DNA of 34,108 nucleotides, taken from positions 1 to 34,108 of IMG/VR virus record IMGVR_UViG_3300030114_000029; one strand, given 5' to 3'. The translations under genes were made by a program, and so were the position numbers. The notes beneath the pieces are model-generated. The model worked only from the letters and a program-made list of their open reading frames with translations. It had not been told where the DNA came from and ran no database searches. The first letter of the stretch is position 1. Each line of letters opens with the position of its first letter. The stretch comes from a virus. Shown here in pieces: positions 1,176 to 19,085 of this stretch.

Positions 1176-1363
1176 TGTTCCCACCCCAGACTCTTCGATA
1201 TTTCCGCGTTGAAGCCGCCCAGCTCCTTCAGCCGGGCTGCGAAGTAATCGCCGGTTTCGCTCTGCAAGAGAGGGTTGCCGGTCTTGGCAAACCTCCACAT
1301 GCGGCAAAGTTCATAGCGGCTCATCGCGTCGATCGCCGCTTTCTGCTCTGTCGTCATCGGCAT
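1172..1363 (-). CDS. Small conserved phage protein (ISKSLGWE C-terminus)
   Basis: A 63-aa protein starting at the ATG at 1363, which overlaps the AAA ATPase stop as TGATG with GAGG upstream. It shows a pattern I recognise in many phage small proteins: an early M-R-ELCRMWRFA stretch, G-NPLL in the middle and GGFNAEISKSLGWE at the end. These are commonly encoded beside phage recombination or early genes. No biochemical function is known to me; it may be helical and DNA-associated, which is inference only. Confidence 0.75.
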   Translation of the reverse strand: MPMTTEQKAAIDAMSRYELCRMWRFAKTGNPLLQSETGDYFAARLKELGGFNAEISKSLGWEQ

Positions 1364-2769
1364 CAGTCGGCCTCGTTCTGAGCAATGGCCAGGCCGTCTT
1401 CCATCACAATGCCAATCTTGCCGCTTGAGTCCACGCGCGAGATCCAGATCTGATAGTCAAACTCCTCGGCCATCTCGGCCAGCAGCTTGAGCCCGTCTTC
1501 GTCCAGCGCCTCGCCGTGCGGTATGCGCATCACGCGCAAGGTCGGGTTCAGCGCCATGCCCAGCCTGGTCGAGATCCTGATCGCCTCACCCTCGCCCAGG
1601 TTGGCCAGCGGCAAGCCGTTAAACGTCACCTTGGCCTCGTCAAAGCTCAAGCCCTCAACCGGAATCTTGGCCTCCCTGAGCGCCTTGCGCTTCTTCTCTT
1701 CCCTGCCCGCCATCTTGTCGCTCAAGGCCTGCGCCTCTTTCTCCTTGGCGGTCAGCTCGGCTTTCACCTTGTCATAGCGCTGGCGGTCTTCGATCGCGCG
1801 GTTGGTGCGCTGCGCGCTTTGCAACTCGGCCGTCAGTGCGCCCACGTCCACCGGCTCACCGCTCGGCGCGGCTTCGTGCGCCCGCTCGGCCTCGGTCAAG
1901 GCCTTGCCCAGCGTCTTGTTCTTGTCGCTCATAATCTTCAGGTTGTCTTTCGCCTGTTTGAGCTGGGTTTCAAGCACCGCAATGGTTTGCGTGATCCGCT
2001 CGGCCTCGCGTTCGCCGCCCTCAAAGGCCTGCCGCGCCTGTGTCACAGCCTGCCCAAGATCCTGCTTGGCTTTGAAAGTCTCCTGCATCCGGCGGTTGGC
2101 TTCGGCGGCCTCGTCCAGCTTGGCCAAGATCGCGCTCTCGTCCAGCTTCTCTTTGGGCAGTCCCTCAAGCGCGGTCATGTTGTTCAACTGCGCTTCAAGC
2201 TGCTTCACCTGGCGATTGACGAGCGTGCGCTCGGCATAGTCGATCTCGTTGGCGTTGTTCAAGTCGTCAATGTCCACATCAAGCACAACAGCCTTGCGTA
2301 GCGTCTCCACCTGCTCAGCCGGTGTCATGCGGGTAAAGGCCAGCGGGTCAAAGGCCAGCTCGCCCACAATGCCGTCAAGCATCGCCTGGGGCGTGTCCCA
2401 TGCCGTCTTTCCCTTGGCCATCTCAAGGGTCAGTGTCGGCAGCGCGCTATCCTGTCCCAGCGTCCGAGTCACGGTAAAGGCTCCAAACACTCCCTTGACG
2501 CGCAGTTTCTCGGCTCCGTTGCGCAGAGCCTTCACCGGCAGGGCGGCTTTTCCCTTGAGCAAAAACCAAAGCGCATCGAGCGCGCTGGTCTTGCCCTGGC
2601 CGTTCTTGCCGGTAAACTCTACGATGTGCCCCAGCTTGTCGAGCCTTAGCACTCTGATCTTCTTGAAGTTCTCTGCCTCAAAGGCAAGCAGTTTATCGAC
2701 GCCCGCGGCCTTTGCCGCCGCCCGCTTCTCCCCATCGCTCAGGTTCCGCTTTTCGTTATCCGCCTTCAT
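1363..2769 (-). CDS. SMC/SbcC-like AAA ATPase (ATP-binding coiled-coil protein)
   Basis: About 468 aa from the ATG at 2769, which has GGGAG just upstream; a longer frame reaches 2802 but its ATG lies inside a palindrome. The order is: an N-terminal head with FEAENFKKIRVL, a Walker A GKNGQGKTSALDAL about 45 residues in, a long charged coiled-coil middle, and a C-terminal head with a degenerate Walker B-like strand (LRVMRIPHGEALDEDG). This is the RecF/SbcC/Rad50-type ATPase often found in phage recombination modules with RecT/exonuclease genes, which may lie beyond the left edge. It probably uses ATP to organise DNA ends or single strands. It follows the ParA/RHH pair and a repeat cluster that likely contains its promoter. 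Confidence 0.85.
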   Translation of the reverse strand: MKADNEKRNLSDGEKRAAAKAAGVDKLLAFEAENFKKIRVLRLDKLGHIVEFTGKNGQGKTSALDALWFLLKGKAALPVKALRNGAEKLRVKGVFGAFTVTRTLGQDSALPTLTLEMAKGKTAWDTPQAMLDGIVGELAFDPLAFTRMTPAEQVETLRKAVVLDVDIDDLNNANEIDYAERTLVNRQVKQLEAQLNNMTALEGLPKEKLDESAILAKLDEAAEANRRMQETFKAKQDLGQAVTQARQAFEGGEREAERITQTIAVLETQLKQAKDNLKIMSDKNKTLGKALTEAERAHEAAPSGEPVDVGALTAELQSAQRTNRAIEDRQRYDKVKAELTAKEKEAQALSDKMAGREEKKRKALREAKIPVEGLSFDEAKVTFNGLPLANLGEGEAIRISTRLGMALNPTLRVMRIPHGEALDEDGLKLLAEMAEEFDYQIWISRVDSSGKIGIVMEDGLAIAQNEAD

Positions 2770-2794
2770 TCGCTCCCACTCTTTCCGCCCACTG

Positions 2795-2810
2795 CTATAC
2801 ATTTGTATAG
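2795..2810. promoter_or_regulatory. 16-bp perfect palindrome at the AAA ATPase leader
   Basis: CTATACA-TT-TGTATAG is a perfect inverted repeat lying between the 11-bp repeat cluster and the ATPase start. On the minus strand it contains TATACA, a plausible -10 element. It therefore looks like an operator overlapping a promoter, perhaps for the RHH protein encoded just upstream. Confidence 0.5.
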
Positions 2811-3127: not shown

Positions 3128-3853
3128 TTACCTTCCTCCTGCGGCTATGCTGAGCCCTTGTGCTTTTTTGTAGACTTGTCCATCAAACAGCGCGCTTGTG
3201 AGCCGATCCAGATCCTCGCGCGCCTTGGCCGTGGCCTCCCGTTGGTCTGGGTCGTTCAACTCAAAGACACTCAGCCCGAGCGCCGCCGCATTCGGGTAGA
3301 CCTTACGCCTGGTCAACTCGGCCGTGGCCAGCTCCAAGCCTGGCACGTTCCGGATGTACTCTGCGGCCTCGCCGTTGTCTTTGCCCTGCGGGTCGGCCTG
3401 GTTGAGCACAGCCACGGCGCGCAGTTGCTCGTTGATCTGGCGGGCATCGCCAATCAGGTCGGCCATCTGGTCGATGGCCCACAAGTCAAAGCTGCGCGGC
3501 TGCACGGGTATCAACACAAGGTCCGCCACAACCAGCGCGGCGCGCAGCCCGCCCGTGTCCCGACCTCCCACGTCGATAACTATATGGTCGTATTTAGACC
3601 TAAGCAGTCTGCATTGAGTTTTGATCGCTCCCTCGCGCAGCTCGATCGCCGTGTATCCCAGGCCCTTCTCTTGCCAATGTTGTATCGAACTAAATCGATC
3701 ATTGCGCAGTTCAGTAAAGGCCGCCGCCGTGCGCTGCTCGTCGCCGTCGATCAGCAAAACCTCGTTCCCTTGGCGCGCGAGCCAGATGGTCAGATTCACG
3801 GCCAGCGTGGTCTTGCCCACACCGCCCTTGATGTTCCCTACAGCTAATATCAC
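3128..3853 (-). CDS. parA: ParA/ParF-family partition ATPase
   Basis: About 241 aa from the GTG at 3853, which sits 5 nt after GGAGGGGAA. The longer frame to 3895 would read through the promoter repeats, so I reject it. Motifs: deviant Walker A NIKGGVGKTTLAVN near the N-terminus, LLIDGDEQRT as the A' strand, and Walker B YDHIVIDVGGRD. There is no N-terminal helix-turn-helix extension, so it belongs with the short ParF/type Ib ATPases of plasmids. It is followed by a ParG-like RHH gene and preceded by 11-bp repeats. The inferred role is segregation of a low-copy extrachromosomal prophage, working with the RHH protein and the repeats. Confidence 0.88.
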   Translation of the reverse strand: MILAVGNIKGGVGKTTLAVNLTIWLARQGNEVLLIDGDEQRTAAAFTELRNDRFSSIQHWQEKGLGYTAIELREGAIKTQCRLLRSKYDHIVIDVGGRDTGGLRAALVVADLVLIPVQPRSFDLWAIDQMADLIGDARQINEQLRAVAVLNQADPQGKDNGEAAEYIRNVPGLELATAELTRRKVYPNAAALGLSVFELNDPDQREATAKAREDLDRLTSALFDGQVYKKAQGLSIAAGGR

Positions 3854-3868
3854 TTCCCCTCCCCTTGT

Positions 3869-3874
3869 GTTATA
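3869..3874 (-). promoter_or_regulatory. Probable -10 element for the parA operon
   Basis: On the minus strand TATAAC lies about 16 nt before the parA start and abuts repeat cluster B; the matching -35 position (about 3892-3897, CTATGA) is poor and lies inside the repeats. Binding of the RHH protein to the repeats would occlude this promoter, consistent with autoregulation. Confidence 0.4.
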
Positions 3875-3875
3875 C

Positions 3876-3919
3876 GTGCAATCCATGTGTATCATAGGTG
3901 CAAACCGTTTGCAATAGCT
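3876..3919. repeat. Cluster B of phased 11-bp direct repeats (four units), upstream of parA
   Basis: Units in + orientation: GTGCAATCCAT, GTGTATCATAG, GTGCAAACCGT, TTGCAATAGCT. They are in the same order as the corresponding units of cluster A at 2814-2879, and the last unit is identical. The array lies immediately upstream of the parA promoter, where type Ib partition operons keep their centromere/operator. Confidence 0.75.
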
Positions 3920-15246: not shown

Positions 15247-15456
15247 TCAAACTCCTGTCACGGGCAAGTAGCGCCGAAAAGGAACCCGGCTTCCCCGATA
15301 AAACTGCCGTGCATACACATCCGCTCCAGATGCCATTGAGGGCAGGCTGGCGATCATGAGCGGGTGTACTCCGCTGATCGTTCCCTCTTCGAGCGCCGGC
15401 GGCTGGATGGCCGGCTGAATCTGCTGCTGGGGCAAAGCCTCGCTTGGTTGCGCCAT
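15247..15456 (-). CDS. Hypothetical small tail-region protein
   Basis: 69 aa. The ATG at 15456 overlaps the stop of the 1209-aa gene as TAATG, behind GAGGAAG. It is Pro/Gln-rich at the N-terminus (PQQQIQPAIQPPALEEG) and ends with ADVYARQFYRGSRVPFRRYLPV. No family recognised. Coupling to the tail gene suggests a virion or assembly role. Confidence 0.6.
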   Translation of the reverse strand: MAQPSEALPQQQIQPAIQPPALEEGTISGVHPLMIASLPSMASGADVYARQFYRGSRVPFRRYLPVTGV

Positions 15457-18400
15457 TACTTCCTCGCTTTCTCAGGCAGCCGCCCATAGATCGTGTAGGT
15501 GAAAAGCTCGTTCGCAAAGTCTTCAGCCTTCCAGCTCAGCTCAACGCGCATGTGGCGGCAGGTCACGGGCTGAGCGTTCTGCATCGCCCAAAAGCGATTC
15601 ACTTCAATGGTTGTCGATCGCGGCTGGTTGGGCGGGTCGTTCGATGTGTTTTTCAGATCGTCATAGACGCCGGCAATCTCATCGAGCATAATGCCCACGT
15701 TTATGCGTGAGCTGCCGGTCAGCATCGCTTCTTCGGTTGTGATGAACTGCACGCCAACAGTTGTTCCTGGCTGAGCCATCACGATAGAGCCAATCTCGGC
15801 CGAGGCCTCATAGGGTGTGCCGTTGTCGGTCGAGACGGTTTTGTCGCGCATCAAGATTGGCCCGTTCACTGCGGGGCCCAGCAGCAAGCGTTTCATGCCC
15901 GGCGCAATTTCGAGACTCGCGATCGCCTTCACGCCGCCCTCGATGATCGCGCGCGGGCTCCAGACGTTTCCACTCTCCGGTGCGGCCACGGCTGCCATGC
16001 GGAACCATCCAATAGCGCCATCGGCTACATAGAGCGCAGCATCGGCGCTCGCGCCTGGATGATAGGCCATGTAGGTTTCGCTGCCGGTGTAGAGCGCGTC
16101 AAACTGATCGCCGATCGGGAATCCGACTTCAAGCTCTCCAGCTCCGGGGTCCATCGAGACCACCTGGCCAGAGGTCAGCATTCCGTAAGCCGTCGAGCCA
16201 TTGATCGTCAGAGCATCCTGGCCGGCGAGTCCTATGCCTGCCTGAAAGTTGATGACGTAAAAAGGCGAGCTGCTGGTTCCTTGTCCCATCACAACCCAGA
16301 CGTCCGAGTTGGTATAGACGATCAGGCCGATCGACGTAGGCCAGCAGGCCACGCCGAGCGAGGGCAGCGCAAAGTTATTGAGCGGTGGAAAGCTCTCATC
16401 GCCGCTGCCGGTCACGATCGCGGGGCCGCCGCTATAAACCAGCCGGTTGGCCACAAAGCCCCAGATCCGATTGAGGTAGTAGGCCATCGGCCTAAAGCCG
16501 ATAGGCGGCGGATCGTTTGAGCTCGAAACAGGCGCGGTGATGAGCTCGTTCAGGTTCCCATCGGGGTTGGTGTCGGTGTAGATCCACGTGTTCGGCGTCG
16601 ATCCCACGGCCGGGTTAGGTATCTCATCGTCATAAATCAGCGTGCTCCCGCCCTGTAGAGTCCTCCAGATGACGATCGTGTCAATCTGCTTGTCGTTGGC
16701 CAGGCCTGCGCCCTGTATCACCGCCAGATTTCCCGCTCCAACCAGCAAAGACAGCGATATTGGGCTCGCCGTCCCAATGTCGCCGGTAATTGAGTTTTTT
16801 CCGCTATAAGCCCACTGCCATGTTCCAGTGTTGGCCTTGCTATACGATCCGTCATTCAGCCAGGTCAAGGTGTTGTCTGTGGTGCTGCCGCCGCTTTCCG
16901 TGTTCCATGCCGGGGCGGTCGCGCCGCTTTTGCCCATTTTCTGCACGGTTTCTACGTTGTAGGCGCTGTCGAGCACTTTCGTCGCCAAGCTCAGAGTTTG
17001 AGTTGCTCCGGGCCACGCCGGGGCTGCGCCCTGGTTCTGCCACACCACGGTATTGTCTTCGGTCACGGTTCCCAGGCCGTTTGACCATGCCGGCACGGTG
17101 GCTGCGCTGGTTCCAGCCGTGACACACAAAAAAAGCCCGGTCGCCGTCACCGCCTGCTGCTGATTCTGGTAATAGCCTCCATCGATGCTCTTGTTGTGGG
17201 CTATTCGTCCATTCTCAAGCTCAAAGCATTGATCGTCGTAACTATCTGCATCTACGGTGAGAGTTCTGACCACTCCGATAAAATCATAGGTTTTTGCAAA
17301 AATCTTTTCTGCCTCGATCCAGCCGCCAGTATCTTTCAACAGGTGATCCGGGGTCACTCCTTCATTGTTGCCCATTTCACAGATCGAGCCCCTAAATTTG
17401 TGATCGTGGATCTCCTTGATGGCGACAAATTTCTTTCCATTCCACACCTGATCGTAGACAGTGATTTCGCCAATTCTCCGAGTCCCTTTTTCGGTTTTGA
17501 TGCGCGTGTTCAAGGTGAAGCAATTGCTCACCCAGACCTGCACGGTGATGTAGTAGGTAAACGTCGCCTGCACGACGTCGCCCACCGCATGAGTGGCGCT
17601 TGCAACCCACCCTGCCGCGCCCATGCAGGTCCATATCGCTGTGCCGGGCGAGGTTTCTGCGGTTGGGTTGCCTTTCACCGTTGTCCAGGTTGGGGCTGCA
17701 GCGCCGGTTGTTCCCGCCGTTGTGAGCTGTTGCAGATTTCCGTTGCTGTCTAAAATTACAAAGAGCGGAGCATACCAGGTGTTTGCCGCCCATGCCGGAT
17801 AGATCGACGGCGCCGTGGCCTGGGTAACGATGGGGGCTGTGGCCGGGGTCTCAATTCCCCATTTTTCGACCGAGGTGCCACGGTTCTCCCATTGCTCGCC
17901 GCCATCCTGGGTGATCGCTCCAAAGCCGGTGGCCCAGGTTGGCTGCGAGCTGCCAGTGATCCCGGTTCCGGTTGTGGCCGTGCCCGTTTCTACGCTAAAG
18001 GCTAGATCGGCGTGCGTCAGGGCAAAGCTCACCTGTTGCCCGTTTTCAACGATGGTCACCGTTTTGGTTGTTCCATTGAGCGCCGCAATCGTCGTGCAGC
18101 CGGCAAAGGTCAGTTTGGTTCCGACGGGTATTCTCAACTGCGATGCACTTGAAAAAAACACGGTCGCCACGTTCGCCGTCACTGAAATATCGGTGATCGT
18201 AGAGGTCTGCGATCCGACAGCCAGTTGCATGTTGTTGTTTGGGTCGACAAAAAAGTTCCCGCGGCTGTAGCTGGTCGCCGCTATCCACTGCAGAGCGCTC
18301 GTCACCCATTTATTTGCGTTCACTCCATCGCCAAAAAAAACGATGTTCCCAACACTTTGAAAGCTTGTTCTGCCCGCACTCTGGTCTTTGTTCCATAGGG

Positions 18401-19085
18401 TTAAATCCGTGCTCGGGCCAGTCACATCGCGCACGCTACCGCCAAACAAGACTGCATTCGTCACAACCGCATTGCCTGTGTCGGCGGCGGGTCCGTAGGG
18501 CGCTAAGACAGAACTTTCAAAGTAACAGTCGTTTCCTCCTGGTCCAAACCTAACTCGCGTGAGCGTTTGACTATTGAGCGCAGGATAGTTCGTCACTCCC
18601 GAAAATGTATAAGTCTGCCCAGATTGAAGCGGTGGAAGATTCGATGTAAAAACGACATAGATCAACCATTCAAAAGACCCGTGGCCAACCGGGAAGTATC
18701 CCACCTGCACGCTGGCTATTGTGAGAGTGGCGGGGCCAAAGCTGGTTCCCTCCACGTCAGCCAGGATGTGAATGCGCTCTTGGCCTCCCTGAAATGCGCG
18801 AAACTCATAAAAACGGCTGATCGGGGGAAAGTTGACCGAGTTATAAATCAGACTTCCGGGCCTCCGGGCAAGGCTCAGGCGGCTGGTGACCTCTGTGTTC
18901 TTGCCGCCAACCAGGCGGTCATAGCGCATCGCCGAATAAAACTTCTGATAGAGAAAAGGCACTGCCCCAGATCCCAGCGGGTTGCCCTGCGTCCACATCC
19001 CGGTAAACCATTCATTCGTGTGCAGGGGGGCTGCGGAGGTCGGAGGTATTTGCGCACCGGCGGCAATGAGGGGAGATTCTGGCAT
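15456..19085 (-). CDS. Large multidomain tail protein carrying an internal Hint domain
   Basis: 1209 aa from the ATG at 19085. The N-terminal part has RYDRLVGGKNTEVTSRLSLA then RRPGSLIYNSVNFPPI, a pattern I know from tail proteins of short-tailed phages. Two similar beta-domains follow (TYTFSGVTNYPALNSQTLT; KLTFAGCTTIAALNGTTKT). Then come about four repeats of the type seen at SSQPTWATGFGAITQDGGEQ (next W-N-G), AAAPTW, ATVPAWSN and ATAPAWNT. The third repeat is interrupted by a Hint domain (Cys522-Asn631). The C-terminal 450 residues look like a beta-propeller-type hub (MAYYLNRIWGFVANRLVYSG, VYTNSDVWVVMG, ALYVADGAIGWFRM). It probably forms the tail hub/nozzle. Its stop is coupled to the next gene. 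Confidence 0.75.
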   Translation of the reverse strand: MPESPLIAAGAQIPPTSAAPLHTNEWFTGMWTQGNPLGSGAVPFLYQKFYSAMRYDRLVGGKNTEVTSRLSLARRPGSLIYNSVNFPPISRFYEFRAFQGGQERIHILADVEGTSFGPATLTIASVQVGYFPVGHGSFEWLIYVVFTSNLPPLQSGQTYTFSGVTNYPALNSQTLTRVRFGPGGNDCYFESSVLAPYGPAADTGNAVVTNAVLFGGSVRDVTGPSTDLTLWNKDQSAGRTSFQSVGNIVFFGDGVNANKWVTSALQWIAATSYSRGNFFVDPNNNMQLAVGSQTSTITDISVTANVATVFFSSASQLRIPVGTKLTFAGCTTIAALNGTTKTVTIVENGQQVSFALTHADLAFSVETGTATTGTGITGSSQPTWATGFGAITQDGGEQWENRGTSVEKWGIETPATAPIVTQATAPSIYPAWAANTWYAPLFVILDSNGNLQQLTTAGTTGAAAPTWTTVKGNPTAETSPGTAIWTCMGAAGWVASATHAVGDVVQATFTYYITVQVWVSNCFTLNTRIKTEKGTRRIGEITVYDQVWNGKKFVAIKEIHDHKFRGSICEMGNNEGVTPDHLLKDTGGWIEAEKIFAKTYDFIGVVRTLTVDADSYDDQCFELENGRIAHNKSIDGGYYQNQQQAVTATGLFLCVTAGTSAATVPAWSNGLGTVTEDNTVVWQNQGAAPAWPGATQTLSLATKVLDSAYNVETVQKMGKSGATAPAWNTESGGSTTDNTLTWLNDGSYSKANTGTWQWAYSGKNSITGDIGTASPISLSLLVGAGNLAVIQGAGLANDKQIDTIVIWRTLQGGSTLIYDDEIPNPAVGSTPNTWIYTDTNPDGNLNELITAPVSSSNDPPPIGFRPMAYYLNRIWGFVANRLVYSGGPAIVTGSGDESFPPLNNFALPSLGVACWPTSIGLIVYTNSDVWVVMGQGTSSSPFYVINFQAGIGLAGQDALTINGSTAYGMLTSGQVVSMDPGAGELEVGFPIGDQFDALYTGSETYMAYHPGASADAALYVADGAIGWFRMAAVAAPESGNVWSPRAIIEGGVKAIASLEIAPGMKRLLLGPAVNGPILMRDKTVSTDNGTPYEASAEIGSIVMAQPGTTVGVQFITTEEAMLTGSSRINVGIMLDEIAGVYDDLKNTSNDPPNQPRSTTIEVNRFWAMQNAQPVTCRHMRVELSWKAEDFANELFTYTIYGRLPEKARK
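17193..17522 (-). other. Hint / bacterial intein-like domain inside the tail protein
   Basis: 110 residues from Cys522 to Asn631. It opens CFTLNTRIKTEKGTRRIGEI, a Hint block A. It has GVTPDHLLKDTGGWIEA, matching block B TxxH (Thr578, His581). It ends CFELENGRIAHN, blocks F/G with the His630-Asn631 pair. The next residue is Lys, not Cys/Ser/Thr, so normal protein splicing lacks its nucleophile, while N-terminal thioester formation and Asn cyclisation could still cleave. This matches type A bacterial intein-like (BIL) domains. At 110 aa it is very short, and there is no homing endonuclease. Confidence 0.8.

Follow-up and report, generated by a model that had tools for sequence, protein, structure and literature searches.

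An intein-like HINT domain of 110 residues, lacking a +1 nucleophile, in a repeat of a phage virion-type protein

BILs lack a +1 nucleophile, lie in variable regions of proteins, form no branched intermediate and yield mostly cleaved products, while in A-type BILs, which keep the terminal His-Asn, minor splicing occurs when the freed amine attacks the N-terminal thioester (PMC4031507, PMC7664689, PMC5874633). Cleavage rather than splicing is the expected behaviour of the A-type domains (PMC4031507, PMC7664689), which occur in bacterial secreted or variable proteins such as MafB (PMC4287609). The length of 130-155 aa given for BILs is a descriptive range and not a criterion (PMC9185962), and natural mini-inteins go down to 134 aa (PMC4031507). 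In the Magnetospirillum BIL, the +1 residue has been replaced by Cys (work cited in PMC4031507). For phages, inteins have been described from non-structural genes, among them those for terminases (PMC3706429, PMC7156551). A nucleophile-free intein-like domain in a virion-type protein would extend the known range of both phage inteins and bacterial BILs, and a length of 110 residues would probe the minimum size of a working HINT domain.

The window, the whole stretch of DNA analysed here, is an entire virus record of 34,108 bases. On its minus strand an uninterrupted frame (15456-19085) encodes a protein of 1209 aa within a block of virion genes. Genes for the large terminase, the portal and the major capsid protein are followed by two medium-sized proteins and then by the 1209-aa ORF. 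This is the order of head-tail adaptor and nozzle/tail genes in short-tailed phages, and we infer a nozzle/tail role from this synteny. The protein has 80 homologues on viral contigs, and a search of the phage collection gave one named relative, gp19 of Tunturiibacter phage Tunturi_3, so the host of the phage is probably an acidobacterium. Profile search of the 1209-aa protein against the PDB returned no credible structural relative. Tunturi_3 gp19 (L006, 7947-11357) is annotated as a head decoration protein, but neither its size nor its place in the gene order suits this label well, which may stem from a weak match to a repeat of the kind obtained here with phrog_20658.

The original prediction had placed a minimal Hint/BIL domain within this protein, and several lines of evidence agree on that identity for residues Cys522 to Asn631 (17193-17522, minus strand, as for all features below). 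An HMM of the N-terminal halves of 40 phage inteins, trained with the window left out, matched the ORF at 45.5 bits (E 1.7e-13), versus 9.3 bits for the runner-up among the 664 window ORFs and 8.8 for the best match in 100 shuffled ORF sets. Because the window domain headed the alignment that retrieved the training loci, the comparison is slightly circular, but these loci are still recognisable independently as polymerase and helicase inteins. The match to a HINT-type domain is not due to chance. In Pfam, the isolated domain matched Vint best (PF14623, E 0.0011, 19.2 bits against a curated cut-off of 27 bits), followed by Hint_2 (E 0.01), and a further Pfam search gave intein_Nterm (E 0.057), each below its curated cut-off. 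A tblastn search of phage genomes with the domain matched inteins of family-A DNA polymerases. The block G-like pattern [ND]G.[IVLM][AVI]HN has one match among the six-frame translations, versus 0.02 expected, and this match is the end of the domain (NGRIAHN, aa 625-631, 17193-17213).

Codon arithmetic and alignment with inteins put the predicted active-site residues in place. Cys522 (17520-17522), the candidate nucleophile for the N-terminal thioester, occupies an invariant column in the alignment with phage inteins, as do the Thr and His of block B TxxH, here Thr578-Pro-Asp-His581 (17343-17354). His630-Asn631 (17193-17198) falls at the boundary set by insert-free homologues. Clear intein homology covers the N-terminal half of the domain with blocks A, N2 and B (17295-17522), aligned to profile positions 1-74. 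An alignment-based scan of viral contigs with the domain gave 66 loci, and 10 of these, when checked with Pfam, comprised six family-A DNA polymerases, three SNF2/helicase proteins and one locus with an intein match only. The closest relatives of the domain are DNA-polymerase and helicase inteins of phages. Of 56 distinct relatives, 55 have Cys at +1 and one has Ser, and the shortest measures 137 aa (median 285). Lys632 (17190-17192) takes that position here, which upholds the claim that the splicing nucleophile is missing, and at 110 aa the domain is unusually short by comparison with these relatives as well as with the BILs and mini-inteins cited above, again as had been claimed.

An alignment-based scan of genome contigs, unlike viral contigs, gave no relatives, and near-exact peptide-pattern scans with either the domain or the whole protein gave no match. 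A DNA pattern for the end F-x-L-x-N-G-x-I-A-H-N-K, run on viral contigs, detected no other HNK domain and two chance matches that lacked protein context. A mixed profile matched intein chains ahead of the BIL of known structure, 2lwy (E 0.073), on an alignment with too few positions for a tree. Shigella phage EP23 at first sight offered an end-to-end relative, with a match over residues 1-110, but the EP23 intein ends about 300 residues on, so the last part of that match is a chance alignment.

The C-terminal half is far less recognisable. An HMM of 48 intein C-ends gave negative scores, with no detectable profile similarity, and alignment of this half with intein C-halves did not succeed. The terminal HN motif is the sole feature that the C-terminal half has in common with the block F and G region of inteins. 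The Asp of block F is absent, with VRTLTV in place of a VYDL-type sequence. The domain departs from class 1 inteins of the phage polymerase type in its Lys at +1, in having no block F/G splicing region by HMM and in its site, a variable loop instead of a conserved functional position of the carrier protein. Class 3 was considered and rejected, as Cys1 is present and Cys620 lies too near Asn631 to serve as the block F Cys, given the usual spacing in class 3 inteins. In length the domain falls 15-20% short of the smallest comparable ones cited above, and it may lack a structural element.

Structure prediction likewise gave a HINT fold. An AlphaFold2 model of the domain with 24 intein rows was nearly all beta (pLDDT 81.7, pTM 0.74), from an alignment whose inteins favour a HINT answer; the N-terminal half is independently backed by the HMM, and the fold of the C-terminal half is inferred from the model. 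In a Foldseek search of the PDB with this model, the best 50 matches were all inteins, BIL, Vint or Hedgehog autoprocessing structures. E-values were 9.6e-6 for the gp41-1 intein and 4.6e-5 for Tetrahymena BIL2, Vint gave the best TM-score by query length (0.76), and the Clostridium thermocellum BIL 2lwy ranked 31st (E 1.1e-3). In a second AlphaFold2 run, on the whole third repeat and with homologues lacking the insert as the only other sequences, the domain had a pLDDT below 50, which neither confirms nor contradicts the fold. Matches of this second model in a viral structure library had low TM-scores. Phage proteins labelled 'Hint domain containing protein' were present among the viral structure matches, so Hint domains as such are already known in phages. 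What is new here is the very small size, the lack of a nucleophile, the virion-type protein and the availability of clean insert-free homologues for comparison.

The insertion site could be defined from those homologues. The protein has four P-x-W...W-x-N-x-G repeat units, starting near W267, W432, W493 and W691, and the domain splits the third, as originally described (aa 493-690, 17016-17609). From W493 to N669 the unit measures 177 aa, versus 63-75 in the ten nearest distinct homologues, and subtraction of the 110-aa domain leaves 67. Similarly, the loop bounded by the YIT and F-x-C motifs comes to 27 residues without the domain, within the 23-42 found in 12 homologues, and once the domain is taken out the flanking sequence is 49-58% identical to that of the ten nearest distinct homologues. 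Since unit and loop lengths return to normal, the ends of the insert match Cys522 and Asn631 to within a few residues. Motif scan and intein HMM found the domain in none of the 80 homologues, and a Pfam scan found no Hint among them except in the 1209-aa ORF itself. AlphaFold2 modelling of the repeat with insert-free homologues predicts long strands both before (aa 504-520, 17526-17576) and after (aa 637-656, 17118-17177) the insert, and the domain therefore most likely sits at the tip of a length-variable surface hairpin. Many homologues carry a different large insertion in the third repeat (P0002; L023, L024, L025, L027, L035, L038 and L041), which is PA14-like in at least one, so this repeat seems especially prone to domain insertion.

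Set against the described systems, the domain is nearest in anatomy to A-type BILs, with which it shares the (modelled) HINT fold, Cys1, block B TxxH, a C-terminal His-Asn, the lack of Cys, Ser or Thr at +1 and a location in a variable part of a protein that is not conserved. It differs in its presence in a phage virion-protein gene and in a sequence that resembles phage class 1 inteins more than it does the BIL with a solved structure. We call it BIL-like and do not file it as a member of the A-type BILs because its 110 aa fall outside 130-155 aa. The class 1 inteins of phage family-A DNA polymerases and SNF2/helicase proteins (Shigella phage EP23; loci L087-L152) share VWDG-x-x-W-V and TPDH in the N-terminal half, at about 22-34% identity. 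Unlike the domain, they have Cys (once Ser) at +1 and a GPxxRF-type block F, span 137 to more than 300 aa and lie within enzymes. Vint, which leads both the sub-cut-off Pfam matches and the TM-scores (Tetrahymena Vint, PDB 8r2c), is a family of 166 positions that takes its name from being paired with VWA, a domain absent here. The gp41-1 intein (PDB 6qaz) is also a very small HINT domain, with 128 residues in the crystal, but it splices as a class 1 intein and has a +1 nucleophile.

The GC content of the insert is 46%, while the remainder of the gene has 58%; 0.18% of 330-base stretches in the window reach so low a value, and the insert was therefore probably acquired from outside. Phage class 1 inteins are the nearest to its N-terminal half, and so the domain may not belong to the bacterial A-type lineage but may have begun as an intein that turned BIL-like after moving to a nucleophile-free site. 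Inteins do circulate in this phage group: a related phage (L153, 426-1163, on the contig of L018) has a full-length intein, about 246 aa long, with Cys1, HN, a +1 Cys and a LAGLIDADG-like middle, in what looks like a large terminase. A PF14623 search of 45 related phage records found this terminase intein and one weak chance match (L154) only.

The best-supported reading of these observations is an A-type BIL-like mini HINT domain that would cleave where a break in the chain should be largely harmless, since the features compared match A-type BIL anatomy in all but length. We put at roughly 55% the probability that such a domain, derived from an intein, was acquired, inserted at the hairpin tip of the third repeat and cleaves the virion protein with little ligation. 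Cys522 would undergo an N-S acyl shift to a thioester, and Asn631 would cyclise with the aid of His630 and block B. Lys632 at +1 would make a branched intermediate impossible. Cleavage would take place at one or both junctions. The virion protein would tolerate a nick at the hairpin tip, with the two strands staying paired. Thanks to the many insert-free homologues, cleavage, splicing and inertness could be told apart by expression.

The short C-terminal half makes a serious rival of the idea that the domain is a decaying mini-intein that has lost its endonuclease, the block F Asp and the +1 nucleophile, and that persists uncleaved, folded or partly folded, as a tolerated loop insertion. Its nearest relatives are indeed splicing-type inteins of phage polymerases and helicases, half of it is unrecognisable by profile, it is unusually short and occurs once, and the hairpin tip tolerates changes in length. 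Random decay, however, would not be expected to spare Cys1, TxxH, the terminal His-Asn and the open frame, and a former intein at a nucleophile-free site is hard to explain because inteins need a host Cys, Ser or Thr at +1. We regard an inert remnant as somewhat unlikely.

Efficient splicing without a nucleophile appears improbable. Here the Cys522 thioester would be attacked by the free amine of Lys632 after cyclisation of Asn631, giving a continuous protein of 1099 aa. Excision at exactly Cys522 and Asn631 would restore a normal repeat, and the base of the hairpin would keep both ends close. The route has been proposed for A-type BILs (PMC4031507, which cites Dassa 2004 and Aranko 2013), but cleavage products dominate in those that are known (PMC4031507, PMC7664689).

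The original prediction further suggested that the domain may cleave the protein during maturation and leave a reactive end. A role in maturation, or a function for such an end, found no support: the domain is present in this phage only when compared with 80 homologues, lies in a length-variable loop and looks acquired, so that a tolerated or decaying element fits at least as well as a maturation role, and a benefit to the phage is unsupported. It is very improbable that the phage uses the 110-aa HINT domain with its +1 Lys as a built-in processing or ligation device, in which Cys522 would be activated as a thioester and the N-terminal part passed to an amine (of Lys632, a neighbouring subunit or the host surface) and the tail purposely nicked or cross-linked. 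Functional processing at assembly or infection, through reaction of a surface-loop thioester with an amine of a neighbouring subunit, another virion protein or the host surface, is very improbable too. HINT thioesters can react with outside nucleophiles and related phages hold other, PA14-like, domains in this surface loop repeat, but the domain is not conserved in relatives, has no identified partner and was apparently acquired from outside.

Two further features of the record deserve mention. A ParA-like partition protein (3128-3895, minus strand; phrog_164, E 8e-51) and an AAA/SMC-like ATPase of unknown function (1363-2802, minus strand; phrog_1499, E 9e-83) suggest that the phage may persist as a plasmid. 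In the gene for the 1209-aa protein, a second stretch (18309-18653) has an unusually low third-position GC (0.47-0.48) and no counterpart in the Tunturi_3 sequence; the protein may contain a further inserted domain there, towards its N-terminus at about aa 145-260.
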